Positions 2,991-32,448 of a DNA stretch of 64,000 bases are shown in pieces. This DNA comes from Bernardetia sp. ABR2-2B. GTDB lineage: Bacteria > Bacteroidota > Bacteroidia > Cytophagales > Bernardetiaceae. The stretch spans positions 3,762,001-3,826,000 of the forward strand of contig NZ_CP147020.1 in assembly GCF_037126435.1 (NCBI RefSeq). Direction: 5' to 3'. Made by a program: the position numbers and the translations under genes. How positions within the stretch are numbered: the first letter of the stretch is position 1; every line of letters starts with the position of its first letter. The notes under the pieces were generated by a model. It was not told the DNA's origin. It ran no database searches and was given only the letters and a program-made list of their open reading frames with translations.

Positions 2991-5900
2991 CTACAAAAAC
3001 TCCCCAGTATAATTCTCCTTCAATTCAGAAAGTTCCTTTGGCGTTCCTTCAAAACAAAGATAGCCACCATTTTTTCCTCCTTCTTTTCCTAAATCAATGA
3101 CCCAATCGGCTGCACGAATAACCTCTACATTGTGTTCGATGATGATAGCAGAATGTCCGTGTTCTATCAAGGCATTGATGGATTTGAGCAGCTTCGAAAT
3201 ATCGTGAAAATGCAAACCTGTGGTAGGCTCATCAAAAATAAATAAAATATGCTCTCGGTTGGCTCTATCACTTGCACTTTTGGTAAGAAAGGCTGCCAAC
3301 TTCACACGCTGCGCCTCACCTCCAGAAAGTGTGTTGGAAGACTGCCCCAACTGAATATAACCCAAACCTACCTCTTGCAAGGGCTTCAAACGTGCCATAA
3401 TTGGTTTTGATTCTGCAAAAATTTCTATGGCTTCATCTACGGTCATATCCAAAACATCAGCGATATTTTTTTCTTTGTATTCTACCTCCAAAACTTCCGA
3501 CTGAAAACGCTTTCCTTTACAGGCTTCACAGGTCAGATAAATATCAGCCATAAACTGCATTTCTATTTTTATCTTGCCTTCGCCTTGACAGTTTTCGCAG
3601 CGTCCACCCTCTACATTGAAAGAAAAATAAGCAGGTGTAAATCCTCGCTGTTTCGAAATGGTTTGGTCTGCAAAAAGTGCACGGATATAATCATACGCCT
3701 TCACATACGTAACAGGATTGGAACGAGAAGATTTACCAATCGGATTTTGGTCGACCATTTCTACGCTCGTTACTTTCTTTAGATTTCCTGCTAGTTTATC
3801 CATTTTTCCACTCTCGTCATTGTGGTTTCCCAAATGCTTTGAAAGCGCAGGATAAAGCAGTTTTCTGACCAAAGTAGATTTTCCAGAACCCGAAACGCCT
3901 GTAACTGTCGTCAAGATTCCCAAAGGAAATTTTACAGAAATATTTTTAAGATTGTGTTCCCTTGCGCCCACTACTTCAATATATTCATTCCAATTTCGTG
4001 GCTTTTGAGGAATAATTACTTGCATTTCATCACGCAAATATTTGGCTGTGTAACTATCCGAATCCTTTATAAGTTCTTCTAAAGTTCCTTGAAAAGTAAG
4101 ATTTCCACCATTTGCACCTGCATCTAATCCAATATCTATGATTTGGTCGGCTGCTTTCATTACCTCTTCCTCGTGTTCTACAACGATAACTGTATTTCCC
4201 AAATCACGCAGTTTTTTCAAGACCTTTATCAAATTTTGTGTATCTCTTGGGTGCAGACCAATACTTGGCTCATCCAAAATGTACATCGAACCCACCAAAG
4301 CAGAACCCAAAGAAGTTGCTAGTTTTATACGTTGAAATTCTCCACCTGAAAGTGTAGCTGTTTTTCTATTTAAAGTAAGATATTGCAAACCAACTTCTCC
4401 CAAATATTGCAAACGGTTTCTTATCTCTATCAAAATTCGTTTCGAAACGCTTTCTTGATGTTCTGTAAGTTGTAGTTGTGCAAAAAAGTCTATCAGCTCG
4501 TCTAAGGGAAGTAAAACCAATTCTTGAATAGATTTTGAATCAATCTTGACATAACCTGCTTCTTTTCTGATGCGTGTTCCGATACAGTCTGGACAGGTTT
4601 TTCTACCTCTATATTTTGATAATAAAACTCTGTACTGAATCTTGTAACTTTCACTTTCCATAAAAGCAAAAAACTCATCTAATCCTTTGAAATATTTATT
4701 TCCTGTCCAAAGAAGTTGTTGCTGCTGCTCTGTCAAGTCTTGATAAGCTCTGTGAATAGGAAAATCAAAATCAATTCCTTTTTTTATGAGTGGATTGAGC
4801 CATTTACTCATTTTTGGTGTTCTCCAAGGCGCAATTGCACCCTCATAAACCGACATTGTTTTGTCTGGAATAATCAAATCTTCATCAATTCCCAAAACAG
4901 TTCCGAAACCCTCACACGTACGACACGCACCATACGGACTATTAAAACTAAAAAAGTTGATATTTGGCTCTTCGAAAAGCATTCCGTCGGCTTCAAAACG
5001 GTCTGAAAAACTTCTCGTTTCCATATCTTTTCCTTTTTGATAAATCTCAACGACACAATCGCCCTTACTTTCATAAAATGAAGTTTGCACAGAGTCAGCA
5101 ATTCTGAAACGGTTTTGCTCGTCATCTTTTCTAACAACTCCTCTATCAATCAGAATAAATAAATCTAATTTTGAAATTCTCTTTAGTTCTGCTGTCTGTT
5201 CTTTTGTGAGTTTTGAAACAGGAGCTTTTGATTTTTTTGCTGTTGTTTTCTTTGTCTTACTTGCTTTTTTTAGCTTTTTCTTCTCTTCTTCGTAATCTTT
5301 TTGTTTATCGCCTTTGTGTTCGTCTAAAAAGGATTCTAGGTTTTGTTCCGTTTGATCTTTTCCAGACTGTGCTTCTGGGTCTATTTCTTTTGGCAATAAC
5401 TGCTCAATAAAAATAACATCTTCCCCTGCTTTTATTCTTGTAAAACCTTGTTGTAATAGGATATTTAATTGGTCTTCAAGCGTTCTTTCTGCTGGAACTA
5501 CCAAAGGCGCAAGTACCATATATTTCGAACTTTCCTCAAAACTCTCTATAAAATCTACCACATCAGAAACATTGTCTTTCTTGACCATCTCTCCAGAAAC
5601 AGGCGAATAAGTAACTCCAATTCTTGAAAAAAGAAGCTTTAGATAATCATAAATTTCTGTCGTCGTTCCTACCGTAGAACGTGGATTTCTTGTATTCACT
5701 TTCTGCTCCACAGCAATAGCAGGGGAAACGCCACGAATCCAATCTACATCAGGCTTTTCCATTCTCCCCAAAAACTGACGTGCATAGCTACTCAAACTCT
5801 CCACATACATGCGCTGACCTTCTGCAAAAAGTGTATCAAAGGCTAGTGATGACTTCCCAGAACCCGAAACGCCTGTAATGACAATCAGTTTGTTTCTCGG

Positions 5901-6292: not shown

Positions 6293-6847
6293 ATGAATCC
6301 GTATTTTATCTTGCCAACTATGCGACTGTATCTAAGACCTATTGATATAGAGGATGCAGAAGAAGTTTTTGAATATAAATCCAATAAAAAAGCTAATAAA
6401 TTTCAAGGGTTTATTCCAAAAAATAAGGAAGAAGTAGAAGATTTTATTCAAAAAAAAACAGCTAGAGAAATAAATATTGAAAATACTTGGTTTCAGTTTG
6501 TCATCATTCACGAACGAGATACTAAAATTATTGGAGATGTTGGACTTCATTTTTTGGAAGGAGGAAACAACCAAGTCGAATTTGGAATTACACTAAATTC
6601 AGAGTATCAACAACAAGGATATGCAAAAGAAGCAATGAAAACAGTTATTTCATATCTTTTTAGAGATTTGAATAAACATCGAATTATCGCATCAATAGAC
6701 CCAAGAAATATATCTTCTATAAAATTAATGAAAAGTCTGAATATGAGAAAAGAAGCTCATTTTGAAAAAAGTTTGTTCTTCAAAAATGAATGGGTTGATG
6801 ATTTGATTTATGCGATTTTGAAAGAAGAATATGGGAAGGTTTTGTAA
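6293..6847 (+). CDS. GNAT acetyltransferase, RimJ/RimL type
   Basis: A 184-residue cytoplasmic protein opening with LPTMRLYLRPIDIEDAEEVF, the standard start of RimJ/RimL-like N-acetyltransferases. Mid-protein it has GDVGLHFLEGGNNQVEFGITL, then the acetyl-CoA-binding loop QQQGYAKEAMKTVISYLF and the C-terminal ASIDPRNISSIKLMKSLNM. Members acetylate protein N-termini, small amines or antibiotics; the substrate cannot be read from sequence. It appears monocistronic, diverging from uvrA across a 233-bp gap. Confidence 0.88.
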   Translation: MNPYFILPTMRLYLRPIDIEDAEEVFEYKSNKKANKFQGFIPKNKEEVEDFIQKKTAREINIENTWFQFVIIHERDTKIIGDVGLHFLEGGNNQVEFGITLNSEYQQQGYAKEAMKTVISYLFRDLNKHRIIASIDPRNISSIKLMKSLNMRKEAHFEKSLFFKNEWVDDLIYAILKEEYGKVL

Positions 6848-9557: not shown

Positions 9558-10784
9558 TTATTCATCATACCACTCTCTGAACATTTTGAACCATTTTTCC
9601 ATTTTTTTCTCTTTATAAACAAAGCTAATTGTACCTTCTGCGATTTGTTCTTCGTTGTTTCCATCATTATTAGAAAACATTTTTACATTCATTTTGTAAG
9701 TTTGTCCTTCTTTGAAAGTAGCTTTGTTTTGGTATAAAGTGTACATAAAAGCATAGTCAAGGATGTTTTCACGAGAAGAAATCATTTGATGACCGTGGTT
9801 ATAGCAGAAAATATCTGTTTTCTTTTTAGCAGAAATCATTTTATTCCATTTTGCAGTAGAATTACGAAGAGCTACACGGTCACCTTTTTTACCATTCATT
9901 TCATAAACGATATTCAACTGGCAATCCGAACCACAACTTGTTCCGATTTTTTCTTTGAAATAAGCTCCTAAGAAAATATCATCTCCCATATCTCTTGTTT
10001 TGATGAAATTACTAGGATTTTCTGTTGGCTTATCTCCATATTTATAATTGAAACGAGTGTAGCTATCTACAAAAACTACTTTACCTACATTTTCTTTATA
10101 GGCTTTGTATTCCATTAGTTGCGCTCGTTTTTTCTCATCTGCTTTTGCTTTTCCTTTGCTCATCATTTGCTCAAATTTTGCTTGAGCAGTTTCGATGTCA
10201 TAGACCTCTAATTTAGATTCATCTTTAGCAAAAACGTCTGATACAGTTTCTGTTCCATCTAATTCGTATCTGTGTGTACTTTTGTTATTTACGCCTATCA
10301 AAACTCCATCTTCTGCTTCTACAAGCCAAATAGATTGAAAGCTACCATAACGATAAACATTTGTTCCTAGTTTTTTTGTTTCTTTGTCATTAAGTTTGAA
10401 CTCATATTTAGCCCCTTCTTTGTTATAAAAGACCTCTAACTTGTTTACAAACTTATCGCCATCACGCCCAGTGAACTTCATTTTTAATGTTCTCTGACGA
10501 CGTTTTGCGCCCATTGCATTTTCAAACTCCACACCGTCTAGTGCTTTGTATGTTCCAGATATTCCTTTGTCATCTGAAAAATCTTCGCCGTAAGGGTCAC
10601 CAGCTTCTTTTGCTTTCTTTGCCTTTCCAGCAGCAGCTCCACCACCTTCAGCAGCAGCAGCAGCTTTAGCTAATTTTGCTTTGAGTTTTTTTCCAAATTG
10701 TGCATTTGCATCATTCGACACACCTACTGCACATAACATTGCCGTAGCAAGGGCAGCACTTTTGAATAAATTGACTAATTTCAT
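9558..10784 (-). CDS. Secreted protein of unknown function, basic/alanine-rich N-terminus
   Basis: I start at the ATG at 10784 because MKLVNLFKSAALATAMLCAV begins a clean signal peptide ending ANA; the frame is open further upstream without a sensible leader. The mature protein (about 385 residues) begins with a low-complexity KKLKAKLAKAAAAAEGGGAA tract, then a globular part without a domain I recognise. Cys residues occur in TSCGSDCQLNIVY and IFCYNHGHQM. The end, TISFVYKEKKMEKWFKMFREW, is helical. It is convergent with the NADAR gene. Its 3' region carries the same CTA-rich element as two other leftward secreted-protein genes here. Unlike them it shows no paired-repeat promoter in its 155-bp upstream gap. 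Confidence 0.75.
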   Translation of the reverse strand: MKLVNLFKSAALATAMLCAVGVSNDANAQFGKKLKAKLAKAAAAAEGGGAAAGKAKKAKEAGDPYGEDFSDDKGISGTYKALDGVEFENAMGAKRRQRTLKMKFTGRDGDKFVNKLEVFYNKEGAKYEFKLNDKETKKLGTNVYRYGSFQSIWLVEAEDGVLIGVNNKSTHRYELDGTETVSDVFAKDESKLEVYDIETAQAKFEQMMSKGKAKADEKKRAQLMEYKAYKENVGKVVFVDSYTRFNYKYGDKPTENPSNFIKTRDMGDDIFLGAYFKEKIGTSCGSDCQLNIVYEMNGKKGDRVALRNSTAKWNKMISAKKKTDIFCYNHGHQMISSRENILDYAFMYTLYQNKATFKEGQTYKMNVKMFSNNDGNNEEQIAEGTISFVYKEKKMEKWFKMFREWYDE

Positions 10785-10903
10785 AATAAAATTTTTGTTA
10801 GTAGTACGATTAAATAAATTTGAAGTAATTGCTCTGCTCAATACAGAACATTAAAATTGATTTTTGAATAAATGAGATTGATATTTTTTGGCTTTGTGAT
10901 ACC

Positions 10904-10939: not shown

Positions 10940-12259
10940 TTACCAGCTAAAACTGACAGCAGAAGTACGAACATTTATAGAACCTTTTGAACCTCTTTTT
11001 CCATCATAAGGACTATGGTTTTCGTGTTTTCCACCATTTCCACCTTGATTATTTATAGTGTAAGTGAATGTTCTGACGCTTGGGTCTTTGATGATAGTTA
11101 CATCTCCACCATCTCCACCATTTCCTCCTCGTGTGTTATCTCTGCCATAGCTGCCACTTCCTCCTTGTAAATTTAGTGTCAGAGGAGCATTCGGACTCAT
11201 TTTTAATTTTCTCAAAACCTGTCCCGAACTAGCATCTTTAATTTCTATTTGATTTACTTTCTCGCCATTTCCTGTTGTAGTTGCTTTTACAGACATAATT
11301 ATATCTTTTCCATTTTTTCCTCTATATCCTGCCGAAACAGTCAAGTGAACAACTCCACCACGTTCTCCAAAATAATTGACGTGCAAACCAGTATTGTAAT
11401 GAACAGGAAGTTTAGCTGATGTTTTGATATTGGATTGATACTTCGATTGTGCACTTACAACGACATTATCATTTGGGATTACATTTGCATTTTCTGCTAT
11501 TGTGAGCGTTTCCTCTCCAAATAATCCACCTTTTACAGTAATTTTGAAGTCATCCCAAGGCATTTTGCCACCTAAGTTTTTTGTTTTCAAGACTGTTCCA
11601 TCAGCTAGAGTAGCTTGGATTCCATAATTCATTTTTACTAAATGTCCTGTTTCGTCTTTGTCACTAATCCATTTTACAGCGATATTTTTGACTTTTTTTC
11701 CTTTGAGTGAGTTGGCTAATGCTTCTGCTGCATCTATTTCAGCTTGTTTTTCTACAAGTTCTGCACGGTCTTCTGATTGTGCAGCAACTGTTTTGCGAAT
11801 GTAGTTTTCTATTTTACTGATATGACCTGCGTGGTCTTTATCTACACTTTCCTTTTCTGTAAGGATGTATTTTATAGTTGCTTTTCCTCCAGACCATTTG
11901 ATATAATAAAAATTATCATCAATGAATACCACTCGGTGTTTTTTATCTTTGAAATAAGCAGGATATTCTTTCAAGTCAGGAGCGTAAGGCTCTTCTATAA
12001 TTCCTGCTCGGTTGATAACCAATTTAGAAATAGAATTACCATTTTTCTCTAAACTGATAGGCCACGGCTTAGATACTTTTTCAAATTTGTATTTGTGATA
12101 CTTTGGCTCTGTAAGTTTGAAAATGTTGAGCGAAGTGGCTGTAAAGTTCTTGAGGAGTTCGTTTTGGCTTTGTTGTGCTTCTACTTTTGGAGTATTGAGA
12201 AATAGAGAAATAAAAATCCCTACTGTGAGAAGACATAAAGATTTAGAGAGTGAGCTCAT
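10940..12259 (-). CDS. Secreted protein with glycine-rich C-terminal segment, unknown function
   Basis: A 439-residue protein with a signal peptide (SLCLLTVGIFISLFL, cleavage near VEAQ). The middle is beta-rich and contains VVFIDDNFYYIKWSGGKATI. That stretch weakly resembles YIVLDGVIYSVTYLDELDEI in the secreted protein at 27723-28757, so the two may be distant relatives. The last 75 residues are glycine-rich (GGSGSYGRDNTRGGNGGDGG, later GGNGGKHENHSPYDGKRG), a surface-fibre or collagen-like style, and end on a hydrophobic strand, VSFSW. Function is unknown. Its upstream region has paired direct repeats and a TAnnTTTG element like those of two other secreted-protein genes, suggesting LytTR control. 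Confidence 0.75.
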   Translation of the reverse strand: MSSLSKSLCLLTVGIFISLFLNTPKVEAQQSQNELLKNFTATSLNIFKLTEPKYHKYKFEKVSKPWPISLEKNGNSISKLVINRAGIIEEPYAPDLKEYPAYFKDKKHRVVFIDDNFYYIKWSGGKATIKYILTEKESVDKDHAGHISKIENYIRKTVAAQSEDRAELVEKQAEIDAAEALANSLKGKKVKNIAVKWISDKDETGHLVKMNYGIQATLADGTVLKTKNLGGKMPWDDFKITVKGGLFGEETLTIAENANVIPNDNVVVSAQSKYQSNIKTSAKLPVHYNTGLHVNYFGERGGVVHLTVSAGYRGKNGKDIIMSVKATTTGNGEKVNQIEIKDASSGQVLRKLKMSPNAPLTLNLQGGSGSYGRDNTRGGNGGDGGDVTIIKDPSVRTFTYTINNQGGNGGKHENHSPYDGKRGSKGSINVRTSAVSFSW

Positions 12260-12336: not shown

Positions 12337-12412
12337 CAAACTTATAGCTTGGCTACTAGAATAAATTGGCTTTCGAACAAACGTCTAGCCTTTTCGAATA
12401 AACGTTGTTAGT
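12337..12412 (-). promoter_or_regulatory. Predicted LytTR-type promoter for the gene at 10940-12259
   Basis: Two direct repeats, TTCGAACAAACGTCTAG and TTCGAATAAACGTTGTTAG, have their AAACGT cores at 12379 and 12400, exactly 21 bp apart, two helical turns. A leftward -7 element TAAGTTTG (fits TAnnTTTG) occupies 12344-12337, 39 bp from the G of the nearer core. The spacing and order match the sites at 28885-28962 and 29480-29555. Start of translation is about 78 bp further left. The remainder of the 12260-12637 gap shows no gene. Confidence 0.6.
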
Positions 12413-24021: not shown

Positions 24022-25602
24022 TTACTCTTTAATTATACGTTTGGTTTGTATTCCTTTATCGGTTGTTATTTTTAAGAGATACATTCCTTTAGCTACATTT
24101 TTCAACTGTATCGAATTAGAGTTTTTAGTAGAGCTAATAGTTTGTCCTTGTACATTCAAAACTTCAATAGAAAGAATTTTGTCAGAAGATTTGATTTTGA
24201 CCACATCTTTTACTGGATTTGGATAAACTAGCAAGTCATTAGTTATATCTTTCATGTTATTGGTTGTTATTTTTCTTGACGTATAACCACCTCCAGTTGG
24301 AGAATTATTTATGCAAGATGTTCCACTTGGACAAAACTCATACGCTCCAATATCTACTGTTCCTTCTAATACTCTATCATTTCCTCCATATCCTTTGCCA
24401 GTTGCATAAGCATTATTTCCTGCATTACGAGCTGGTGAAGTAGCAGAAAGTTTTAAATAATCTGGAGATGTTGGATTGGTACTAATGAATTGAGGATTTT
24501 GGTTGTATATATTATTAGAACAGTTTGCAATACTTGAAGTATGTGTAAGTAAGAAATTACAATCATTTTTATCTATTAGACAGTTATCCAGACTAGTGCT
24601 TCCTACATTTATACTAAAGACTTGTCCTCCACCCCAAAAAATACAGTTATAAAAATAAGATGAACTCATGTTCATTTGGTTATTCACATAAGATTTTGTG
24701 TTGTAAAAAGTAGAGTTGTAAACATTTACATCTACAACACTTCTGTTGATTATTCCTGATGAAAAAGCAGGATCTGAAGAGCCATCAAATATAGAGTTTT
24801 CAATGTTAAGCCGAACATTATTATTTACTAAAAGGAAATTTAAATCTAAACCAACACTATTCAAAAATCTTGAGTTTTGAACTTTTATATTAATACTACT
24901 GCTAGTTACTGCAAATGTATTTTCCATTTTTATAGCTGTAAAACCTTCAAATTCAGAATTGCTAATTTGGGTAAGTACAGTTGAGTTTCCTGTAAACCTT
25001 ACGTATATTCCGAAGCTAGTAGCAAAATACGAATTAGTTATTTCAGGAGAGAAACTACCTTGATAATTGCTTAATCTCATAAAATGACTTGTAAACCCAT
25101 TATCTTTGAAAAAACTACAATTATTGATTTTCATTTCGAAAATTGAAACGTTACTTCCTAAGCCAATCGCTACATTACTGATATTAATTACTTTCAAACC
25201 ATCTAATAGGGTTTGCTTATCTAAGTTTTGATTAGACGAAAACGCAGGGTTTCCTTCAATTACTGTATCTAAGTTTCCGAAGAAACGTGTTGCATTAATA
25301 AGCCATTCAGCTACAAGTATATTAGTGTTAGGAATATAACGTACATTGTATCCTCCGTATATCTTTACACCATTTATTAAAGTAAATCCTCCAGTAGGAG
25401 CTATATAATTACCTTGGTCTACACGAATTATATCACCATAACGAGCATTTCTGAGAGCTGTACCAAGATTGTGATAAGCATTTTTCCAAGTTTGTCCATC
25501 ATTTGAGCCTTGCGAGTCGTTATCCACATAAATAATAGCTGCTTGTGAATAAGAGAAAAACAAGAAAAATAAAATTGATAAGTAAATTCTTTTTTGGTTC
25601 AT
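24022..25602 (-). CDS. T9SS-secreted right-handed beta-helix protein, paralog 1
   Basis: The 526-residue protein has a signal peptide (ILFFLFFSYSQAA), then the start typical of right-handed beta-helix surface proteins: IIYVDNDSQGSNDGQTWKNA, GDIIRVDQGNY and GVKIYGGYN. Many short N/S-rich strand repeats follow. ARNAGNNAYATGKGYGG plus VDIGAYEF is a choice-of-anchor Q-type end, and the last 75 residues are a Por secretion sorting tail (LLVYPNPVKDVVKIKS to KGMYLLKITTDKGIQTKRII). It should cross the outer membrane by type IX secretion and be surface-attached or released. The ends are nearly identical to the neighbour at 25930-27594, while the helix repeats have diverged. Confidence 0.88.
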   Translation of the reverse strand: MNQKRIYLSILFFLFFSYSQAAIIYVDNDSQGSNDGQTWKNAYHNLGTALRNARYGDIIRVDQGNYIAPTGGFTLINGVKIYGGYNVRYIPNTNILVAEWLINATRFFGNLDTVIEGNPAFSSNQNLDKQTLLDGLKVINISNVAIGLGSNVSIFEMKINNCSFFKDNGFTSHFMRLSNYQGSFSPEITNSYFATSFGIYVRFTGNSTVLTQISNSEFEGFTAIKMENTFAVTSSSINIKVQNSRFLNSVGLDLNFLLVNNNVRLNIENSIFDGSSDPAFSSGIINRSVVDVNVYNSTFYNTKSYVNNQMNMSSSYFYNCIFWGGGQVFSINVGSTSLDNCLIDKNDCNFLLTHTSSIANCSNNIYNQNPQFISTNPTSPDYLKLSATSPARNAGNNAYATGKGYGGNDRVLEGTVDIGAYEFCPSGTSCINNSPTGGGYTSRKITTNNMKDITNDLLVYPNPVKDVVKIKSSDKILSIEVLNVQGQTISSTKNSNSIQLKNVAKGMYLLKITTDKGIQTKRIIKE

Positions 25603-25647
25603 GATTTTAAATAAATTTGAATTGAAATTGAATTAATTTTTATATAT

Positions 25648-25670
25648 CTACTACGTGTGCGAGTTATCTT
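25648..25670 (-). repeat. CTA-rich 3'-UTR element, copy 2 (two CTA units)
   Basis: CTACTACGTGTGCGAGTTAT is followed by CTT. It is the shortest of the three copies. It lies 15 bp past the stop of the remnant at 25685-25885 and about 45 bp upstream of the beta-helix gene start. Confidence 0.8.
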
Positions 25671-25684
25671 TGATAGAATGGAGG

Positions 25685-25885
25685 TTATTGAGTAGTTACA
25701 GTTCCTCCACATTTTTGATCGACACCTACAATCAAGCGACTTTTTGAACTTCTACATCCAGAGCCATTATCTACACCATAATAGATGTCTTTATCACAAG
25801 AAAATGTTGCTGAACCATAACCACTAATGGGTTCTGTTCCTCCTGAGTGAGAAATACAAACACTTCTACCACTTGTGTTTTTTAA
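25685..25885 (-). pseudogene. Remnant of a secreted protein: C-terminal Asn-x-Thr/Ser-Gly domain without a start
   Basis: A 66-codon leftward frame has a stop immediately upstream and no start codon. Its product begins LKNTSGRSVCISHSGG, continues SATFSCDKDIYYGVDNGSGC and ends LIVGVDQKCGGTVTTQ. It aligns with the C-terminal domain of the protein at 27723-28757 (IKNSTGRDIYIYRS...FPCGVELYYDF...DKCADKMGG) and with the whole mature part of the one at 29105-29428 (IKNDTGSKLSIYTGSG...SCNTGKKVYTA...MCGKTV). The same gene order (domain gene, then beta-helix gene) occurs in both tandem units. I therefore take this as the left-over 3' end of a duplicated copy of the 27723 gene. Confidence 0.65.
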
Positions 25886-25887
25886 TT

Positions 25888-25917
25888 ATCTCCCTATTTT
25901 TTGAAAAGTAGGGAGAT
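25888..25917 (-). terminator. Stem-loop after the second beta-helix gene
   Basis: ATCTCCCTA and TAGGGAGAT form a 9-bp stem with a 12-nt loop, 12 bp past the stop of the leftward gene at 25930. The T-tract is weak on the leftward strand. Confidence 0.6.
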
Positions 25918-25929
25918 ATTAATGAAAAA

Positions 25930-27594
25930 CTATTCTTTTACAATACGCTTAGTTTGTATTCCTTTATCAGTAGTTACCTTTAAAAGATACATTCCTTTAG
26001 CTATATTCTGTGTATTCAATTCTTTAGAATCTTTAGTAGAATTTATTAGCTGTCCTTGTACACTCAAGAGTTCAATAGAAATAACTTTATCAGTAGTTTT
26101 GATTTTTATTATATCTTTTACTGGGTTTGGATAAACAAGTAAATTTTCTGTACTGTTTTCTAGGTTTTGGGTAGCTATTTTTCTACTTGTATGTCCTCCA
26201 CCTCCAGTCGGAGAAGTATTTATACAAGATGTTCCACTAGGACAAAACTCATAAGCTCCAATATCTACTGTTCCTTCTAGTATTCTATCATTTCCTCCAT
26301 ATCCTTTTCCAGTAGCAAAAAGATTATTACCTGCGTTACGAGCTGGTGATGTTGCAGAGGGTTTTAGATAGTCTGCATTATTTGGGTCTGTACTTATGAA
26401 TTGAGGGTTTTGATTGAAGATAGAATTAGTACAATTCACTGTTCCTGTAAAATTTGTTCCAAATATAGATGTAGGACAAGTAGTACCATTAAACAAACAA
26501 TTATTAAATCTATAATAACCTTTAGAACTAGCTATACCAAATACAGTTCCTCCTCCATTGACGATTATACTGTTATTAAAATTTGCAGCAACAAGGTCAT
26601 TTCCAAAAGTCATTATTATACTGCTAGGATTATAAAGAGTGCTATTATCTACATACACATTACAAAGCGAACCTATCTCAAAAGGACGAATGAGATAGTT
26701 AGATGATAAACTAGAAAAAATAGAATTAGTAATTTTAACATCACTAATTATACCAGTTGATGATGCTACATTTTTCAGTGCTAATTTTAATCCGTAAAAA
26801 TTACTAAGGAGGGAGTTGTTTACACTAATTTTTGGTCTAGACAAAATGTCCATTGTGCTGCCATCAAATTGCAAGGCTACATTTCCTGATGAATTTGATC
26901 CTGTATTCTTGAAATTGGTATTATCTACTTTGATATCTAATGAAGAATTCATACCAAATTCTATCTTTATTCCTGTCATTGTTTCAAAATTACAGCCATT
27001 GATTACTGGACTGAAAGACCCTGTGAAAGTAGAACCACCGTTTGAAATTCCTCGTGAAAATGGAGATGTATTTGATATACTCTTAAACGTACAGTTATTG
27101 ATATGTAATGCAAATGTGATTGGAGTAGTGCTTATTAATCCAATAATTGGATTAGAATACTGGGTAGAGTTGTTACTTTTTAAAATTAAACCATCAATAA
27201 TAGTCTGATTACTCAGATTTTGATTAGCTAAGAATACAGGGTTTCCTTCAATAATTGTAGTTGCAGGTGGACTACCAAAAAATCGTGTAGCATTAATGAG
27301 CCACTTAGGAATTATAGTTCCATTGTTATATCGTACATTATAACCTCCATATATTTTTACACCATCTTTTAATATGAAACCTCCAGAGGGAGCTGTATAA
27401 ATACCTTGATCCATACGAATAATATCTCCAGAATTAGCATTTGATAGAGCTGTACTCAAGCTGTGATAAGCATTTGCCCAAGTCTGTCCGTTATTATTTC
27501 CTTGTGAGTCATTATCTACATAAATAATAGCTGCTTGTGCATAAGAGAAAAACAAGAAAAATAAAACTGATAGGTAAATTCTTTTTTTGTTCAT
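25930..27594 (-). CDS. T9SS-secreted right-handed beta-helix protein, paralog 2
   Basis: The 554-residue protein has the same plan as its neighbour at 24022-25602. It has a signal peptide, IIYVDNDSQGNNNGQTWANA, a beta-helix of N/S-rich repeats (about 130-420), ARNAGNNLFATGKGYGG with VDIGAYEF, and a Por sorting tail (NLLVYPNPVKDIIKIKT to GIQTKRIVKE). The roughly 40 bp before its ATG are almost the same as those before the neighbour, so the duplication included the leader. The first 90 and last 130 residues are conserved between the pair while the helix has drifted, as expected if the helix determines what is bound. Surface location by type IX secretion is inferred from the tail. Confidence 0.88.
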   Translation of the reverse strand: MNKKRIYLSVLFFLFFSYAQAAIIYVDNDSQGNNNGQTWANAYHSLSTALSNANSGDIIRMDQGIYTAPSGGFILKDGVKIYGGYNVRYNNGTIIPKWLINATRFFGSPPATTIIEGNPVFLANQNLSNQTIIDGLILKSNNSTQYSNPIIGLISTTPITFALHINNCTFKSISNTSPFSRGISNGGSTFTGSFSPVINGCNFETMTGIKIEFGMNSSLDIKVDNTNFKNTGSNSSGNVALQFDGSTMDILSRPKISVNNSLLSNFYGLKLALKNVASSTGIISDVKITNSIFSSLSSNYLIRPFEIGSLCNVYVDNSTLYNPSSIIMTFGNDLVAANFNNSIIVNGGGTVFGIASSKGYYRFNNCLFNGTTCPTSIFGTNFTGTVNCTNSIFNQNPQFISTDPNNADYLKPSATSPARNAGNNLFATGKGYGGNDRILEGTVDIGAYEFCPSGTSCINTSPTGGGGHTSRKIATQNLENSTENLLVYPNPVKDIIKIKTTDKVISIELLSVQGQLINSTKDSKELNTQNIAKGMYLLKVTTDKGIQTKRIVKE

Positions 27595-27722: not shown

Positions 27723-28757
27723 TTATTTGACTTCGTAGGCTTTTCCACCCATTTTGTCAGCACATTTGTCATATACTCCTGCTCGTGATATTCTTATAAC
27801 TTTATTAGGGTAGTAGAAGCGTTTGCCTGTAAAGTCGTAATATAGTTCTACTCCACAAGGAAAATTGAGTGTAACTCCTGCTCCCATAACTGAACCTTCG
27901 TTGCTATCACTTCTATAAATGTATATATCTCTACCAGTAGAGTTTTTTATTAGCATTGAATTTTGCTGATTAATGACAGCATCCATTTTAGCTCCTTTTC
28001 CTTCTACTATGGCTTTATACTTTTGTCCTTCTGCTGATTTTTCCCAAACAGGAATAACTTCTTGCTGTTTCTTGTAAGCAGCTTTGTAGTATTCTTTTAC
28101 TTTATCATAGGCTTTCATTTCATGTAACTTACTAGCACCAGCATCACCCAATGAATTTTTCAGAGCTTTCATACGCTCTTTTAAAGACATTTTCTTCTTT
28201 TTTTTGCTACTATCTTCAGTTTTTTCTTCTTTTTTCGCAAAGTCTTCGTGTACAAAAATATGCCAAACCTTAATTTCATCTAGCTCATCTAAGTAAGTAA
28301 CACTATAAATTACCCCATCTAAAACAATATACGTGTACGTTCCTGATGATTTGAGCTTATTTCTACTGAATTTGCGAGGAGTATAACCAATTTCCTTTTG
28401 CATTTTTGCATTTCCTTCATAATACCTTACTGGATATGAAATAGGAAAAGCAAAATGGTCTGGTAAGTGAGCTTTAGGAACTTCATTGATTGAGCGTCCT
28501 AGCTTTATTTTTAGATAAAAATGTTTGTTGGGGAAGTTTTTCTCTGGTTCTATTGAAGTAACTTCTAAAGGATACTCTTCTGTAATATTATAGAGTGAAG
28601 TGTGTCCGTTACTTTCTTCTACTTCATAAGTGATATACTTGCCTTCTTTCAAGGATTTCATATGCTCACTCTGACTTTTCACACCTTCGTCTGTACCTTT
28701 AAAAGCAAAAAGAGTAATTGCTAAAATGGTAATGATTGATGATACTAAATATTTCAT
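27723..28757 (-). CDS. Secreted protein with C-terminal Asn-x-Thr-Gly domain, unknown function
   Basis: A 344-residue protein with a signal peptide (YLVSSIITILAITLFAFKG). The N-terminal half is beta-rich (HFYLKIKLGRSINEVP, YTYIVLDGVIYSVTYL), then comes a lysine-rich helical linker (about 175-255, SSKKKKKMSLKERMKALKNS). The last 75 residues form a small domain: IKNSTGRDIYIYRSDSN, LNFPCGVELYYDFTG, IRISRAGVYDKCADKMGG. That domain recurs alone at 29105-29428 and as a remnant at 25685-25885. Two Cys at matching positions suggest a disulfide. The promoter region has the paired-repeat design predicted for LytTR control. Export and function are inferred only from the signal peptide. Confidence 0.75.
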   Translation of the reverse strand: MKYLVSSIITILAITLFAFKGTDEGVKSQSEHMKSLKEGKYITYEVEESNGHTSLYNITEEYPLEVTSIEPEKNFPNKHFYLKIKLGRSINEVPKAHLPDHFAFPISYPVRYYEGNAKMQKEIGYTPRKFSRNKLKSSGTYTYIVLDGVIYSVTYLDELDEIKVWHIFVHEDFAKKEEKTEDSSKKKKKMSLKERMKALKNSLGDAGASKLHEMKAYDKVKEYYKAAYKKQQEVIPVWEKSAEGQKYKAIVEGKGAKMDAVINQQNSMLIKNSTGRDIYIYRSDSNEGSVMGAGVTLNFPCGVELYYDFTGKRFYYPNKVIRISRAGVYDKCADKMGGKAYEVK

Positions 28758-28884: not shown

Positions 28885-28962
28885 CAAAACTAGGGGATTA
28901 TGATGGAAGTACCATGTTAGTGTTTATGAATGGTAGGTTTTATTCCACGAATGGTAAGGTTT
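28885..28962 (-). promoter_or_regulatory. Predicted LytTR-type promoter for the gene at 27723-28757
   Basis: Direct repeats TATGAATGGTAGG and CACGAATGGTAAGG have AATGGT cores at 28929 and 28950, 21 bp apart. A leftward -7 element TAGTTTTG occupies 28892-28885, 40 bp from the G of the nearer core. No TTG-type -33 element is obvious, which fits an activator-dependent promoter. The untranslated leader would be about 125 nt. Confidence 0.65.
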
Positions 28963-28979
28963 TGTATTTTGATAAAGTA

Positions 28980-29012
28980 AAACCCTAAGGGTCTTGGAGA
29001 CCCTTAGGGTTT
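28980..29012. terminator. Perfect 14-bp hairpin, dispersed terminator-like repeat
   Basis: AAACCCTAAGGGTC and GACCCTTAGGGTTT flank a 5-nt loop. A diverged relative serves as a terminator at 50087-50119. Here it lies between the LytTR-type sites and the main terminator of the gene at 29105. Confidence 0.7.
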
Positions 29013-29024
29013 AGGAACAAAAAA

Positions 29025-29055
29025 AACCAACCTAAAAACGCATTTTAGATTGGTT
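29025..29055 (-). terminator. Intrinsic terminator of the small secreted protein gene
   Basis: AACCAA-C-CTAAAA and TTTTAG-A-TTGGTT form a 12-bp stem with one mismatch, followed on the leftward strand by a run of T residues. Confidence 0.8.
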
Positions 29056-29104
29056 TGAGAAATAATTATTAGGGTTAATTGTAAGACTGAAAAAATACTT
29101 AGGA

Positions 29105-29428
29105 TTACATATAATCAGAAAGGTTTACAGTTTTTCCACACATACTGCTTTCTATTTTGAAAAGAAAATCGTCTTTTGTTCCTTTAGAAGCTGTATAAAC
29201 TTTCTTTCCTGTGTTGCAGCTTACACTTGTAGAACTTCCATTGTTGAGTGTTACATAACCCGAACCTGTGTAGATACTTAGTTTACTTCCTGTATCATTC
29301 TTGATTTTGAAAGATGCTTTTGGCGCAGAGATTTCTGTGTCCGTATTTACGTTGTTGTTTGTAGGCGCAACAAAACTCATCAAAGAAACTGATGCTGCAA
29401 GAGATAATGTCAAAAATAATGCTTTCAT
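29105..29428 (-). CDS. Small secreted protein consisting of the Asn-x-Thr-Gly domain
   Basis: The start at 29428 gives MKALFLTLSLAASVSLMSFV, a good signal peptide; the frame is open 18 codons further but without a leader. The mature protein is about 85 residues: a spacer (TNNNVNTDTEISAPKAS), then IKNDTGSKLSIYTGSG, STSVSCNTGKKVYTASKG and LFKIESSMCGKTVNLSDY. This is the same domain as the C-terminus of the protein at 27723-28757, here free-standing. The two Cys match in position. Small size, export and a dedicated regulated promoter divergent from a LytS kinase gene suggest a surface or signalling role, which is inference. Confidence 0.78.
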   Translation of the reverse strand: MKALFLTLSLAASVSLMSFVAPTNNNVNTDTEISAPKASFKIKNDTGSKLSIYTGSGYVTLNNGSSTSVSCNTGKKVYTASKGTKDDFLFKIESSMCGKTVNLSDYM

Positions 29429-29479
29429 AAAATTAAATTTAAGAGTTAAAATAAATAGGTTTTTATTGAATTGATACTC

Positions 29480-29555
29480 CAAAACTAAGCTGTTTATTCT
29501 TGAATTATGATGTGTTTTTCACGAACGGTAGGTTTGACTTCATAAACGGTGGTAT
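29480..29555 (-). promoter_or_regulatory. Predicted LytTR-type promoter for the gene at 29105-29428
   Basis: Direct repeats CACGAACGGTAGG and CATAAACGGTGGT have AACGGT cores at 29524 and 29545, exactly 21 bp apart. The leftward -7 element TAGTTTTG occupies 29487-29480, 40 bp from the first G of the nearer core. This is the same element and spacing as at 28885-28962. No TTG -33 element is seen. The sites also lie about 90-110 bp upstream of the kinase start, so they may affect both genes. Confidence 0.7.
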
Positions 29556-29584: not shown

Positions 29585-29592
29585 TATATTTG
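29585..29592 (+). promoter_or_regulatory. Possible -7 element of the LytS-type kinase gene
   Basis: TATATTTG fits TAnnTTTG and lies about 44 bp before the ATG at 29636. A TTTTTTG stretch ending at 29561, next to the second LytTR-type repeat, could be its -33 element, with spacing of about 23 bp, at the long end. Confidence 0.35.
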
Positions 29593-29635: not shown

Positions 29636-31642
29636 ATGATTTTTAGAAAATTACTACTACTCTTCTTCTTCTTTTCTTACTTTTCTTTCGGATTTTCCCA
29701 AAATGCTACTATAGATTCGTTACTTGCTTTATCAGAAACTAAAGAAGAAGAAGAAAAAGTAAAAATCTTGAAAAAAGTATTCTTTCTTCAATTTTACACA
29801 GCTCCTCAAGAGGCAAAAAAAACAGCTCACAGAACATGGAGAATAGCTAAATCTTCTACAAATAAAAGAGTTAGAGCAGCAGCAGCTTCTAGTTTAGTAA
29901 TTACATATTCTTTACTTGCTCAAAAACACGATAGTGCCGTGTATTGGGCAGATAGGTCAATTAAACTACATCAACAAACAGGTGACTCTGTAGCTATTTC
30001 ACAAGATTTACACAATATAGGAGTAAGCCATTGGATGAATAATAGATATGATAGTGGACTTTATTATTATTTAGAATCAACAAATATTATAGAAAATCTT
30101 AGTTTACCAAAAGAATTAGTCAGTTCTTACGCTAATATAGGTATAGCTTATCAAACACTAAAAAAATATAAAAAAGGTTTTGAGTACTTACAAAAATCAT
30201 TAGAACTTGCTTCTCAACACTCTTCACCAGAATTTGTAATGCAAGTACAACTCAATATTTCTAAATCATACAAAAATATTGGTAAGTTAGACTCTGCTAG
30301 TTGGTATGCAAAAAAAGCACTAAAAATAGCTAATGATATAGAGTCAAGTGTAGGTTTGCATCATATTTATGTTACGTTAGCTAGTTATAACTATTCAGTA
30401 AAAAATTATGAAAAAGGAATAGAATATATAATTCAGTCTGTAAAAATCCCAAGTCACTTAAAAGACCCAACATATAGTATGGAATCAGAGTATGTACATG
30501 CCAAACTATTAATAGGTTTGCATAAATACATTGAAGCAAAAGATATTGCACTTAGAGGAATTAAATTATCTAAAAATACACAAACAAAAAATGATGCTAT
30601 TTTGGTGCAGCTTTATCAACTTATGCCTATCATTTATTCTTATTTAGAGCAGCCTAATAAAGTAACTACTTTCATGGAGAAGTTTATTTCTCTAAGTGAT
30701 TCAATAGATGCAACAGAAATACTTACTAAGACCTCTGAACTCCAAACCGAATACGAAACCGAAAAAAAAGAACAAAAAATAAAAGAGCTAGAGCAAGAAA
30801 AGGAAATAGAAAAACTAGAAATTGAAACCTTACAAAAACAACGAACCATTTTAGCACTTTCATTTCTTGCACCACTAAGTTTTATTTTTGCTGGTGGCTG
30901 GTATGTAAATCGTCGTCGTTTGAAGTTACAACTAGAGGCAGAACAAAGAGAAAGAGCCAAACAGATTAGTGAACTAAAAGCTCTACGCTCACAAATGAAC
31001 CCTCATTTTATCTTTAATGCCCTCAATTCTATTCAAGATTTTATTATGCTTTCGGAAAAAGAAAATGCACAACATTATTTGGGAAAGTTTGCTATACTGA
31101 TGCGTGGATTTTTGGATTCTTCTTCTAAATCAAAAATTAGCTTAGAAAAAGAATTGCCTTTAATCAAGTCTTATATAGAATTAGAAGGTCTGCGTTTGGG
31201 AGAAGAATTTAGCTATGAAATCAATTTTGATTCCAATATTGATGAAGATGAATTAGATGAAATTGAAATTCCACCACTCTTGATTCAGCCTTACTTGGAA
31301 AATGCTTTCAAACACGGACTTTTACACAAACAAGGAGAAAAGAAATTGACTTTAGATTTTGATAAAATAGAAAAATCAGATGAGCAGTTTTTACAACTAA
31401 AAATTACAGACAACGGAGTAGGAAGACAAAAATCAGCCGAAATAAATGAACGTAAGCGCAAAACGCACAACTCTACACACACTTCTTTTGCTACACAGGC
31501 GACACAAGAGCGTTTGGAACTCTTGAAAAGTCAGTCTGTTTCGAATGCAACTATTGAAGTAGAAATAAATGATTTGCAAGACAACCAAGGAAATGCAAAA
31601 GGAACAGAAATTATAATTCTGATTCCAATGAATAATTATTGA
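29636..31642 (+). CDS. LytS-family sensor histidine kinase with TPR domain
   Basis: The ATG at 29636 gives a signal sequence (LLLLFFFFSYFSFGFSQN); upstream in-frame codons have no leader. The 668-residue protein has periplasmic TPR repeats (about 25-360, e.g. YANIGIAYQTLKKYKKGFEY), a coiled coil, one membrane helix (TILALSFLAPLSFIFAGG, about 400-420) and a LytS-type His_kinase domain. The phospho-acceptor is H457 in QMNPHFIFNALNSIQDF. The ATP site shows IPPLLIQPYLENAFKHGLLH and LKITDNGVGRQKS. It should phosphorylate the LytTR regulator encoded 62 bp downstream. The signal sensed by the TPR part is unknown. Confidence 0.93.
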   Translation: MIFRKLLLLFFFFSYFSFGFSQNATIDSLLALSETKEEEEKVKILKKVFFLQFYTAPQEAKKTAHRTWRIAKSSTNKRVRAAAASSLVITYSLLAQKHDSAVYWADRSIKLHQQTGDSVAISQDLHNIGVSHWMNNRYDSGLYYYLESTNIIENLSLPKELVSSYANIGIAYQTLKKYKKGFEYLQKSLELASQHSSPEFVMQVQLNISKSYKNIGKLDSASWYAKKALKIANDIESSVGLHHIYVTLASYNYSVKNYEKGIEYIIQSVKIPSHLKDPTYSMESEYVHAKLLIGLHKYIEAKDIALRGIKLSKNTQTKNDAILVQLYQLMPIIYSYLEQPNKVTTFMEKFISLSDSIDATEILTKTSELQTEYETEKKEQKIKELEQEKEIEKLEIETLQKQRTILALSFLAPLSFIFAGGWYVNRRRLKLQLEAEQRERAKQISELKALRSQMNPHFIFNALNSIQDFIMLSEKENAQHYLGKFAILMRGFLDSSSKSKISLEKELPLIKSYIELEGLRLGEEFSYEINFDSNIDEDELDEIEIPPLLIQPYLENAFKHGLLHKQGEKKLTLDFDKIEKSDEQFLQLKITDNGVGRQKSAEINERKRKTHNSTHTSFATQATQERLELLKSQSVSNATIEVEINDLQDNQGNAKGTEIIILIPMNNY

Positions 31643-31704: not shown

Positions 31705-32448
31705 ATGAAAGCCATAATTATAGACGACGAACTCCGTGCAAGAAGAGTTTTGAAAACTCTCTTGACAGAACATTGCCCTCAAATAAATATTGTTGGAGAA
31801 GCTGAAAATGTACCTGATGCTGTACAGCTCATTCACAAGACAAACCCTGATATTGTTTTTTCGGATATCGAAATGCCCGAATATTCTGGCTTTGAACTCT
31901 TAAAGTTTATTACCAATATAGATTTTGCCCTTATTTTTGTAACAGCCTATCAAGAGTATGCCATTCGTGCCTTTGAGGTTTCGGCAGTAGATTATCTTCT
32001 CAAACCTATTCAAGTAGAACTCTTGAAAAAAGCTGTCGAAAAGGTAGAAAGTCGCCTACAATTAACAGGAAATGTAGAAAATAATCAGAAAATGGAAACG
32101 CTACGAGAAAATCTCAAGGGAGAATATATCACTCGTTTTGCTCTTCCGATGGCAGACGGACTTATGTTTGTAGAAGCTGATGATATTATGTATTTGATTG
32201 CAGAAGGCTCTTATACAGAAATTATTTTTTCCGACAAAAAGCGTGTTTTGATTACCAAAAAAATCAAATATTTTGAAGAGAATTTAATCAATCCTTGTTT
32301 TTTTCGTTCTCATCGTTCGTATATTGTCAATCTAAACAAAATCAGTCAGTATATCCGAACAGGAAATTACATCATAATGGACGACGGTTTTAAGGCAAGT
32401 TTAGCTAGAGATAGAAAAGAGCAGTTTTTGAAAATCTATCAAGGGTAG
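31705..32448 (+). CDS. LytTR-family response regulator
   Basis: A 247-residue two-domain regulator. The receiver (1-120) has acidic D7/D8 in AIIIDDE, phospho-acceptor D54 in IVFSDIEMPEYSG, and K100 in AVDYLLKP. The LytTR DNA-binding domain (about 145-247) shows IMYLIAEGSYTEIIF, FFRSHRSYIVNLNKI and a GNYIIMDDGFKASLARDRKE end. LytTR proteins bind pairs of about 9-bp direct repeats on one face of the helix. Three such pairs, 21 bp apart, lie nearby at 12379, 28929 and 29524 in front of secreted-protein genes. Those are proposed targets, not proven ones. Confidence 0.95.
   Translation: MKAIIIDDELRARRVLKTLLTEHCPQINIVGEAENVPDAVQLIHKTNPDIVFSDIEMPEYSGFELLKFITNIDFALIFVTAYQEYAIRAFEVSAVDYLLKPIQVELLKKAVEKVESRLQLTGNVENNQKMETLRENLKGEYITRFALPMADGLMFVEADDIMYLIAEGSYTEIIFSDKKRVLITKKIKYFEENLINPCFFRSHRSYIVNLNKISQYIRTGNYIIMDDGFKASLARDRKEQFLKIYQG

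Follow-up and report, generated by a model that had tools for sequence, protein, structure and literature searches.

Predicted LytTR operators with a 21-bp repeat step upstream of secreted-protein genes in Bernardetia

Binding sites of LytTR regulators comprise direct or inverse repeats of 9–11 bp with 11–13 bp spacers and share no common consensus (PMC4847170). The sites of LytTR regulatory system (LRS) operons are 9-bp direct repeats, mostly with a 12-bp spacer (e.g., ACCACTTAT-12-ACCGCTTAT), that are located ~10 bp upstream of the -35 element (PMC6193735), which puts the repeats about 33 bp (10 bp + 6 + 17) from the -10 element. LytS-type kinases and LytTR response regulators are paired in YpdA/YpdB and BtsS/BtsR of Escherichia coli, where direct repeats (YpdB: GGCATTTCAT) precede few targets (PMC4847170). 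The LytTR protein CoxC represses via three direct repeats that overlap the -35 element (PMC11347149). Within the Bacteroidota, the main sigma factor of flavobacteria recognizes a -7 consensus of TAnnTTTG (PMC9723704) and only putative repeats have been given for LRS-like operons of Bacteroides (PMC6193735). In the openly licensed literature, we found no paper that treats two-component LytTR operators from Bernardetia or Flavobacteriaceae, nor characterized ones across the Bacteroidota.

We analyzed a stretch of 64,000 nucleotides (hereafter, the window) from the genome of the marine bacterium Bernardetia sp. ABR2-2B. The window encodes a sensor and regulator pair and several secreted proteins, as follows:

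29636–31642, plus strand: LytS-A, a LytS-family histidine kinase with TPR repeats (PF06580)
31705–32448, plus strand: LytTR-A, a response regulator with receiver and LytTR domains, the predicted binder of P2 and P3
29105–29428, minus strand: 107-aa secreted protein, target of P3; homologs adjoin LytS/LytTR in Bernardetia and Flavobacteriaceae
27723–28757, minus strand: 344-aa secreted protein, target of P2; the only homologs found are beside LytTR-B-type regulators in the Bernardetia genome G003
10940–12259, minus strand: 439-aa secreted protein, target of P1; the ortholog adjoins lytS/lytTR and a type-A operator in the genomes G001, G002, G004, and G006
9558–10841, minus strand: gene downstream of the 439-aa gene (408 aa in relatives), in one operon with the 439-aa gene in relatives

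The LytS/LytTR pair noted in a preliminary description of this locus was confirmed by Pfam, with a LytTR-domain match (PF04397, 1.4e-17) in 31705–32448 that places a LytTR regulator close to the repeats described below. LytTR-A was not classed with the LRS, in which a membrane inhibitor takes the place of a kinase: it is paired with a histidine kinase (PF06580) and itself carries a receiver domain. No Pfam family was found for the 107-, 344-, or 439-aa target proteins. The predicted structure of the 107-aa protein (pLDDT about 90 over residues 41–107) is a beta-sandwich whose thaumatin-like matches are weak (best E 0.016), and the predicted model of the 439-aa protein is of low confidence (pTM 0.35). 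As judged by eye, the C-terminal part of the 344-aa protein resembles the 107-aa protein (NxTGxxIxIY...).

The candidate operators and their promoter elements are as follows:

29542–29550, minus strand: P3 distal half-site, ACCGTTTAT, type A
29521–29529, minus strand: P3 proximal half-site, ACCGTTCGT, type A, 21-bp step from the distal half-site
29480–29487, minus strand: P3 -7 box, TAGTTTTG, 33 bp past the proximal half-site
29585–29592, plus strand: predicted -7 box of the divergent lytS, TATATTTG, 34 bp away on the opposite side of the P3 operator
28947–28955, minus strand: P2 distal half-site, ACCATTCGT, type A
28926–28934, minus strand: P2 proximal half-site, ACCATTCAT, type A, 21-bp step
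28885–28892, minus strand: P2 -7 box, TAGTTTTG, 33 bp past the proximal half-site
12398–12406, minus strand: P1 distal half-site, AACGTTTAT(TCGAAA), type B
12377–12385, minus strand: P1 proximal half-site, GACGTTTGT(TCGAAA), type B, 21-bp step
12337–12344, minus strand: P1 -7 box, TAAGTTTG, 32 bp past the proximal half-site

Read on the transcribed strand, P1, P2, and P3 each comprise 9-bp direct repeats and a 12-bp spacer (9+12+9), which is the layout of LytTR operators (two 9–11 bp direct repeats separated by 11–13 bp), and 32 bp (P1) or 33 bp (P2 and P3) separate the proximal 9-mer from TAnnTTTG. The three repeat pairs with an exact 21-bp step reported in the preliminary description were all present where it had placed them. 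Its distance of 39–40 bp between core and TAnnTTTG depends on how it is counted; the boxes themselves are as described and the distance is 34–36 bp when measured edge to edge from the 6-bp cores. TTG was also absent at the -33 position of P1, P2, and P3, as claimed, but it is present there in four of the five relatives with the promoter, and a missing TTG is therefore not integral to the design. Further, the P3 gene and P2 operator are separated by a strong GC-rich hairpin (AAACCCTAAGGGTCTTGGAGACCCTTAGGGTTT; 28980–29020) that looks like a bidirectional terminator.

The repeats fit the published LytTR layout and -7 distance, as had been proposed, and the reading of P1, P2, and P3 as LytTR operators is strongly supported by the joint fit of their sequence, 9+12+9 layout, -7 distance, conservation, and gene neighborhood. 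Among described systems, they share with those of the Firmicutes LRS regulators HdrR and BrsR (PMC6193735) and of the AgrA/ComE type two 9-bp direct repeats with a 12-bp spacer, half-sites resembling ACC[GA][CT]TTAT, a distance of about 33 bp from the proximal repeat to the -10 box, and autoregulation from one promoter region, which is putative in Bernardetia. Unlike in HdrR/BrsR, the box in Bernardetia is the TAnnTTTG -7 element of Bacteroidota, no -33 TTG is present in P1–P3, the place of the LRS membrane inhibitor is taken by a sensor histidine kinase (LytS with TPR repeats), and one operator faces two divergent promoters. The locus also shares with YpdA/YpdB and BtsS/BtsR (PMC4847170) a LytS-type kinase, a LytTR response regulator, and direct repeats ahead of few targets, with binding predicted here, whereas its targets are secreted proteins, its kinase has TPR repeats, and there is no sign of pyruvate sensing.

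Whole-genome pattern searches with reversed-pattern controls (5.38-Mb genome) revealed only two matches to AMCRTTNRT-N12-AMCRTTNRT, P2 and P3, and none to the reversed pattern. When N33-TAnnTTTG was appended, P2 and P3 matched with 0 mismatches and the next best match had 2. These pattern searches, used in place of the matrix scan proposed in the preliminary description, recovered exact type-A pairs at P2 and P3 only. At ≤3 mismatches, the pair with N33-TAnnTTTG was not in excess across the genome (22 matches versus 22 in controls), and the loose pair pattern (≤2 mismatches) was not significantly enriched in the 64-kb window (6 found versus 3.2 expected). The evidence for the pairs lies in their exact matching, their constant distance to the -7 box, and their conservation.

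Among the Bernardetia genomes, a search for the exact ACCRTTYRT pair identified exactly one each in G001, G002, G003, G004, and G006, always at the locus of lytS-A and the 439-aa gene, as well as two in the ABR2-2B genome (P2 and P3) and one at another locus in G005. In G001, G002, G004, and G006, the ortholog of the 439-aa gene is divergent from that of lytS-A and is followed by a small secreted gene and the 408-aa gene, with the type-A operator between the divergent genes, 33 bp from the target-side -7 box and 32–33 bp from the lytS-side TATATTTG (33 and 34 bp at P3 in the window). The operator is thus equidistant from divergent -7 boxes (33 and 32–34 bp) in five genomes, and G003 likewise has a type-A operator at its lytS-A locus. 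Across six genomes, this locus has 14 type-A half-sites, every one of which begins with ACC. Across the promoters of the genus, invariant columns made up 67% of the half-sites, 58% of the spacer, and 75% of the -7 box, as compared to 15% of the 33-bp gap and 10% of the upstream sequence, although part of this conservation reflects simple relatedness, since the congeneric genomes are close (LytTR-A orthologs are 90–94% identical; 94% in G006). The promoter that precedes the 439-aa gene in relatives can be aligned with P2, AACATGGTACTTCC and GAAACATAATCAAAC included. The type-A operator of relatives heads an operon of the 439-aa and small secreted genes, and the target genes of P1–P3 thus belong to one ancestral LytTR neighborhood.

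Relative to G002 and G006, the 439-aa gene and lytS are about 17 kb apart in the window. The intervening stretch, which does not separate these genes in G001, G002, G004, and G006, encodes two neighboring secreted proteins that carry sorting tails for type IX secretion (Por_Secre_tail; 24022–27594). The G005 type-A site (L245 1501–1551; G005:C383:1966–2016) comprises three half-sites at 21-bp steps and precedes an unrelated secreted gene (282 aa), with TAGTTTTG at a distance of 53 bp rather than 33 bp and a hairpin between.

The preliminary description had assigned all three promoters to one regulon under the LytTR regulator of the window. Control of P2 and P3, both exact ACCRTTYRT matches, by LytTR-A (31705–32448) is well supported by these comparisons. 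For P1, the same assignment is unlikely, even though in relatives a type-A operator precedes the ortholog of its gene, which is transcribed away from lytS-A, its geometry equals that of P2 and P3 within 1 bp, and it falls within one mismatch of the loose LytTR-A pair pattern. The P1 half-sites (AACGTTTAT/GACGTTTGT) do not match ACCRTTYRT: against the invariant ACC of type A, they begin with AAC or GAC and run on into TTCGAAA (type-B half-site, NACGTTYRTTCGAAA). Moreover, P1-like promoters directly adjoin a second regulator, LytTR-B, in G003 (AACGTTTATTCG.../TACGTTTATTCG, 32 bp before TAAGTTTG) and G005 (AACGTTCAT.../GGCGTTCGTTCG, 32 bp before TAAGTTTG). LytTR-B is encoded in the ABR2-2B genome 2 Mb from the window locus (G000:C1:1822330-1823091) and shares 80–81% identity with its counterparts in G003 and G005 and 33% with LytTR-A. 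When the genus was searched for type-B pairs with ≤3 mismatches, P1 and the copy in G003 were the only hits; the G005 copy, which is more diverged, came to light outside this search, on reading the LytTR-B neighborhood. Among the seven genomes, no type-B pair was found in the four that do not encode LytTR-B. A single motif comprising P1, P2, and P3 was accordingly dropped after the whole-genome search and the placement of P1 orthologs beside LytTR-B.

Since P1 orthologs adjoin LytTR-B in G003 and G005 and were found only in genomes encoding LytTR-B, P1 is most likely bound by LytTR-B rather than by LytTR-A. Two further LytTR-B paralogs in G003 adjoin homologs of the 344-aa gene (loci L066 and L067), and each of their promoters has three half-sites at 21-bp steps, the last 32 bp before TATGTTTG or TTTCTTTG. 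These promoters resemble those of RcoM/CoxC (PMC11347149) in having three direct repeats spaced by ~two helical turns, although no MHYT or heme sensor is present here and the repeats lie upstream of the -35/-33 region rather than over it. The P1 gene is nonetheless an ancestral neighbor, and a likely target, of LytTR-A. The simplest reading is that the 439-aa operon of ABR2-2B is now under a LytTR-B promoter and that the 344-aa gene, of LytTR-B kin, is under a LytTR-A promoter, an apparent swap of promoters between the two sister systems.

We propose that LytS-A phosphorylates LytTR-A, which would then bind ACCRTTYRT-N12-ACCRTTYRT at P2 and P3, with two LytTR domains occupying half-sites 21 bp, or two helical turns, apart on one face of the DNA. 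Bound LytTR-A would recruit RNA polymerase to promoters with a weak or missing -33 element and so activate the genes that start at 28757 and 29428, while LytTR-B would most likely bind P1. Because the P3 operator is midway between two -7 boxes, it probably also feeds back on lytS/lytTR; the sign of this autoregulation may be either, since the lytS-side repeats run opposite to those of characterized LytTR activator sites. Taken as a whole, the model of LytTR-A acting at P2 and P3, LytTR-B at P1, activation, and autoregulation from P3 is, on genomic comparison, quite probable. Repression from these operators, for which CoxC and its three direct repeats overlapping the -35 element provide a precedent (PMC11347149), is improbable: the operators stop 32–33 bp short of the -7 box, which leaves them upstream of the -33 region like those of LytTR activators, and the lack of a TTG -33 element in P1–P3 also counts against it.

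The 21-bp step of these putative activator sites was also detected more broadly. Near-identical 10-mers located 31–34 bp before a -7 box peaked at step 21 (20 versus 0–7 at other steps from 14 to 35) in LytTR neighborhoods that were mainly from the seven Bernardetia genomes and a few other relatives, a count that includes some low-complexity sequence and AATTCGT arrays. At 77 other loci encoding LytTR relatives, mostly from Flavobacteriaceae, 35 TTCAGAA pairs were identified at step 21, and no other step between 12 and 59 had more than two. The half-site in Flavobacteriaceae, TTYAGMAA, is unlike that of Bernardetia; the step is again 21 bp. Several of these loci encode homologs of the 107-, 439-, and 408-aa proteins beside LytS/LytTR (53.8%, 36.4%, and 28.7% identity, respectively). 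Upstream of 25 target genes, pairs with ≥8/9 identity numbered 12 at step 21 and 0 at other steps from 15 to 30, and those with ≥7/9 identity numbered 14 at step 21 versus 0–2 at other steps; many of these flavobacterial loci are interrelated, and the counts are thus not independent. The notion that the 21-bp pairs are a chance or low-complexity coincidence chosen by eye, which the unenriched loose pairs and the lack of a common consensus among published LytTR sites (PMC4847170) might favor, is already contradicted for P2 and P3 and can hardly be reconciled with whole-genome uniqueness, genus-wide invariance, the step-21 peak, and recurrence in another order.

It seems moderately likely that these operators belong to a module of LytS-LytTR and secreted proteins that is widespread in Bacteroidota, in which the geometry is fixed (21-bp step, about 30–33 bp to the -7 box), half-sites vary by lineage and paralog, and targets have been swapped within Bernardetia. 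If so, this would constitute a readable regulator-to-operator code for Bacteroidota, whose LytTR genes are numerous (11 by Pfam in this genome alone): the 21-bp and 32–33-bp rule would allow operators to be read beside each LytTR gene and targets to be predicted. The half-sites ACCRTTYRT, NACGTTYRTTCG, ACCACTYRT, and TTYAGMAA would provide natural paralogs for the study of DNA reading by the LytTR beta-fold, and the promoters that sister systems appear to have exchanged would offer a case in which regulatory rewiring can be tested.

AATTCGT 7-mer tandem arrays adjoin another LytTR gene in G002 (L149, about 5800–5850) and G006 (L154, about 6450–6540) and differ in length between these genomes, as in a phase-variable promoter; they also score at step 21 and were rejected as operators because they are simple tandem repeats. 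Near homologs of the small protein in the distant genomes G023 and G008, no type-A site was found at ≤4 mismatches. One type-A-like site was identified in G054 (L081, about 1370–1450; G054:C161), with 3 mismatches, comprising TCCATTGGT/CCCTTTAGT at step 21 followed by TACCTTTG at exactly 33 bp; it is suggestive only, and the gene behind it, from another family, encodes a homolog (48%) of the 107-aa protein.
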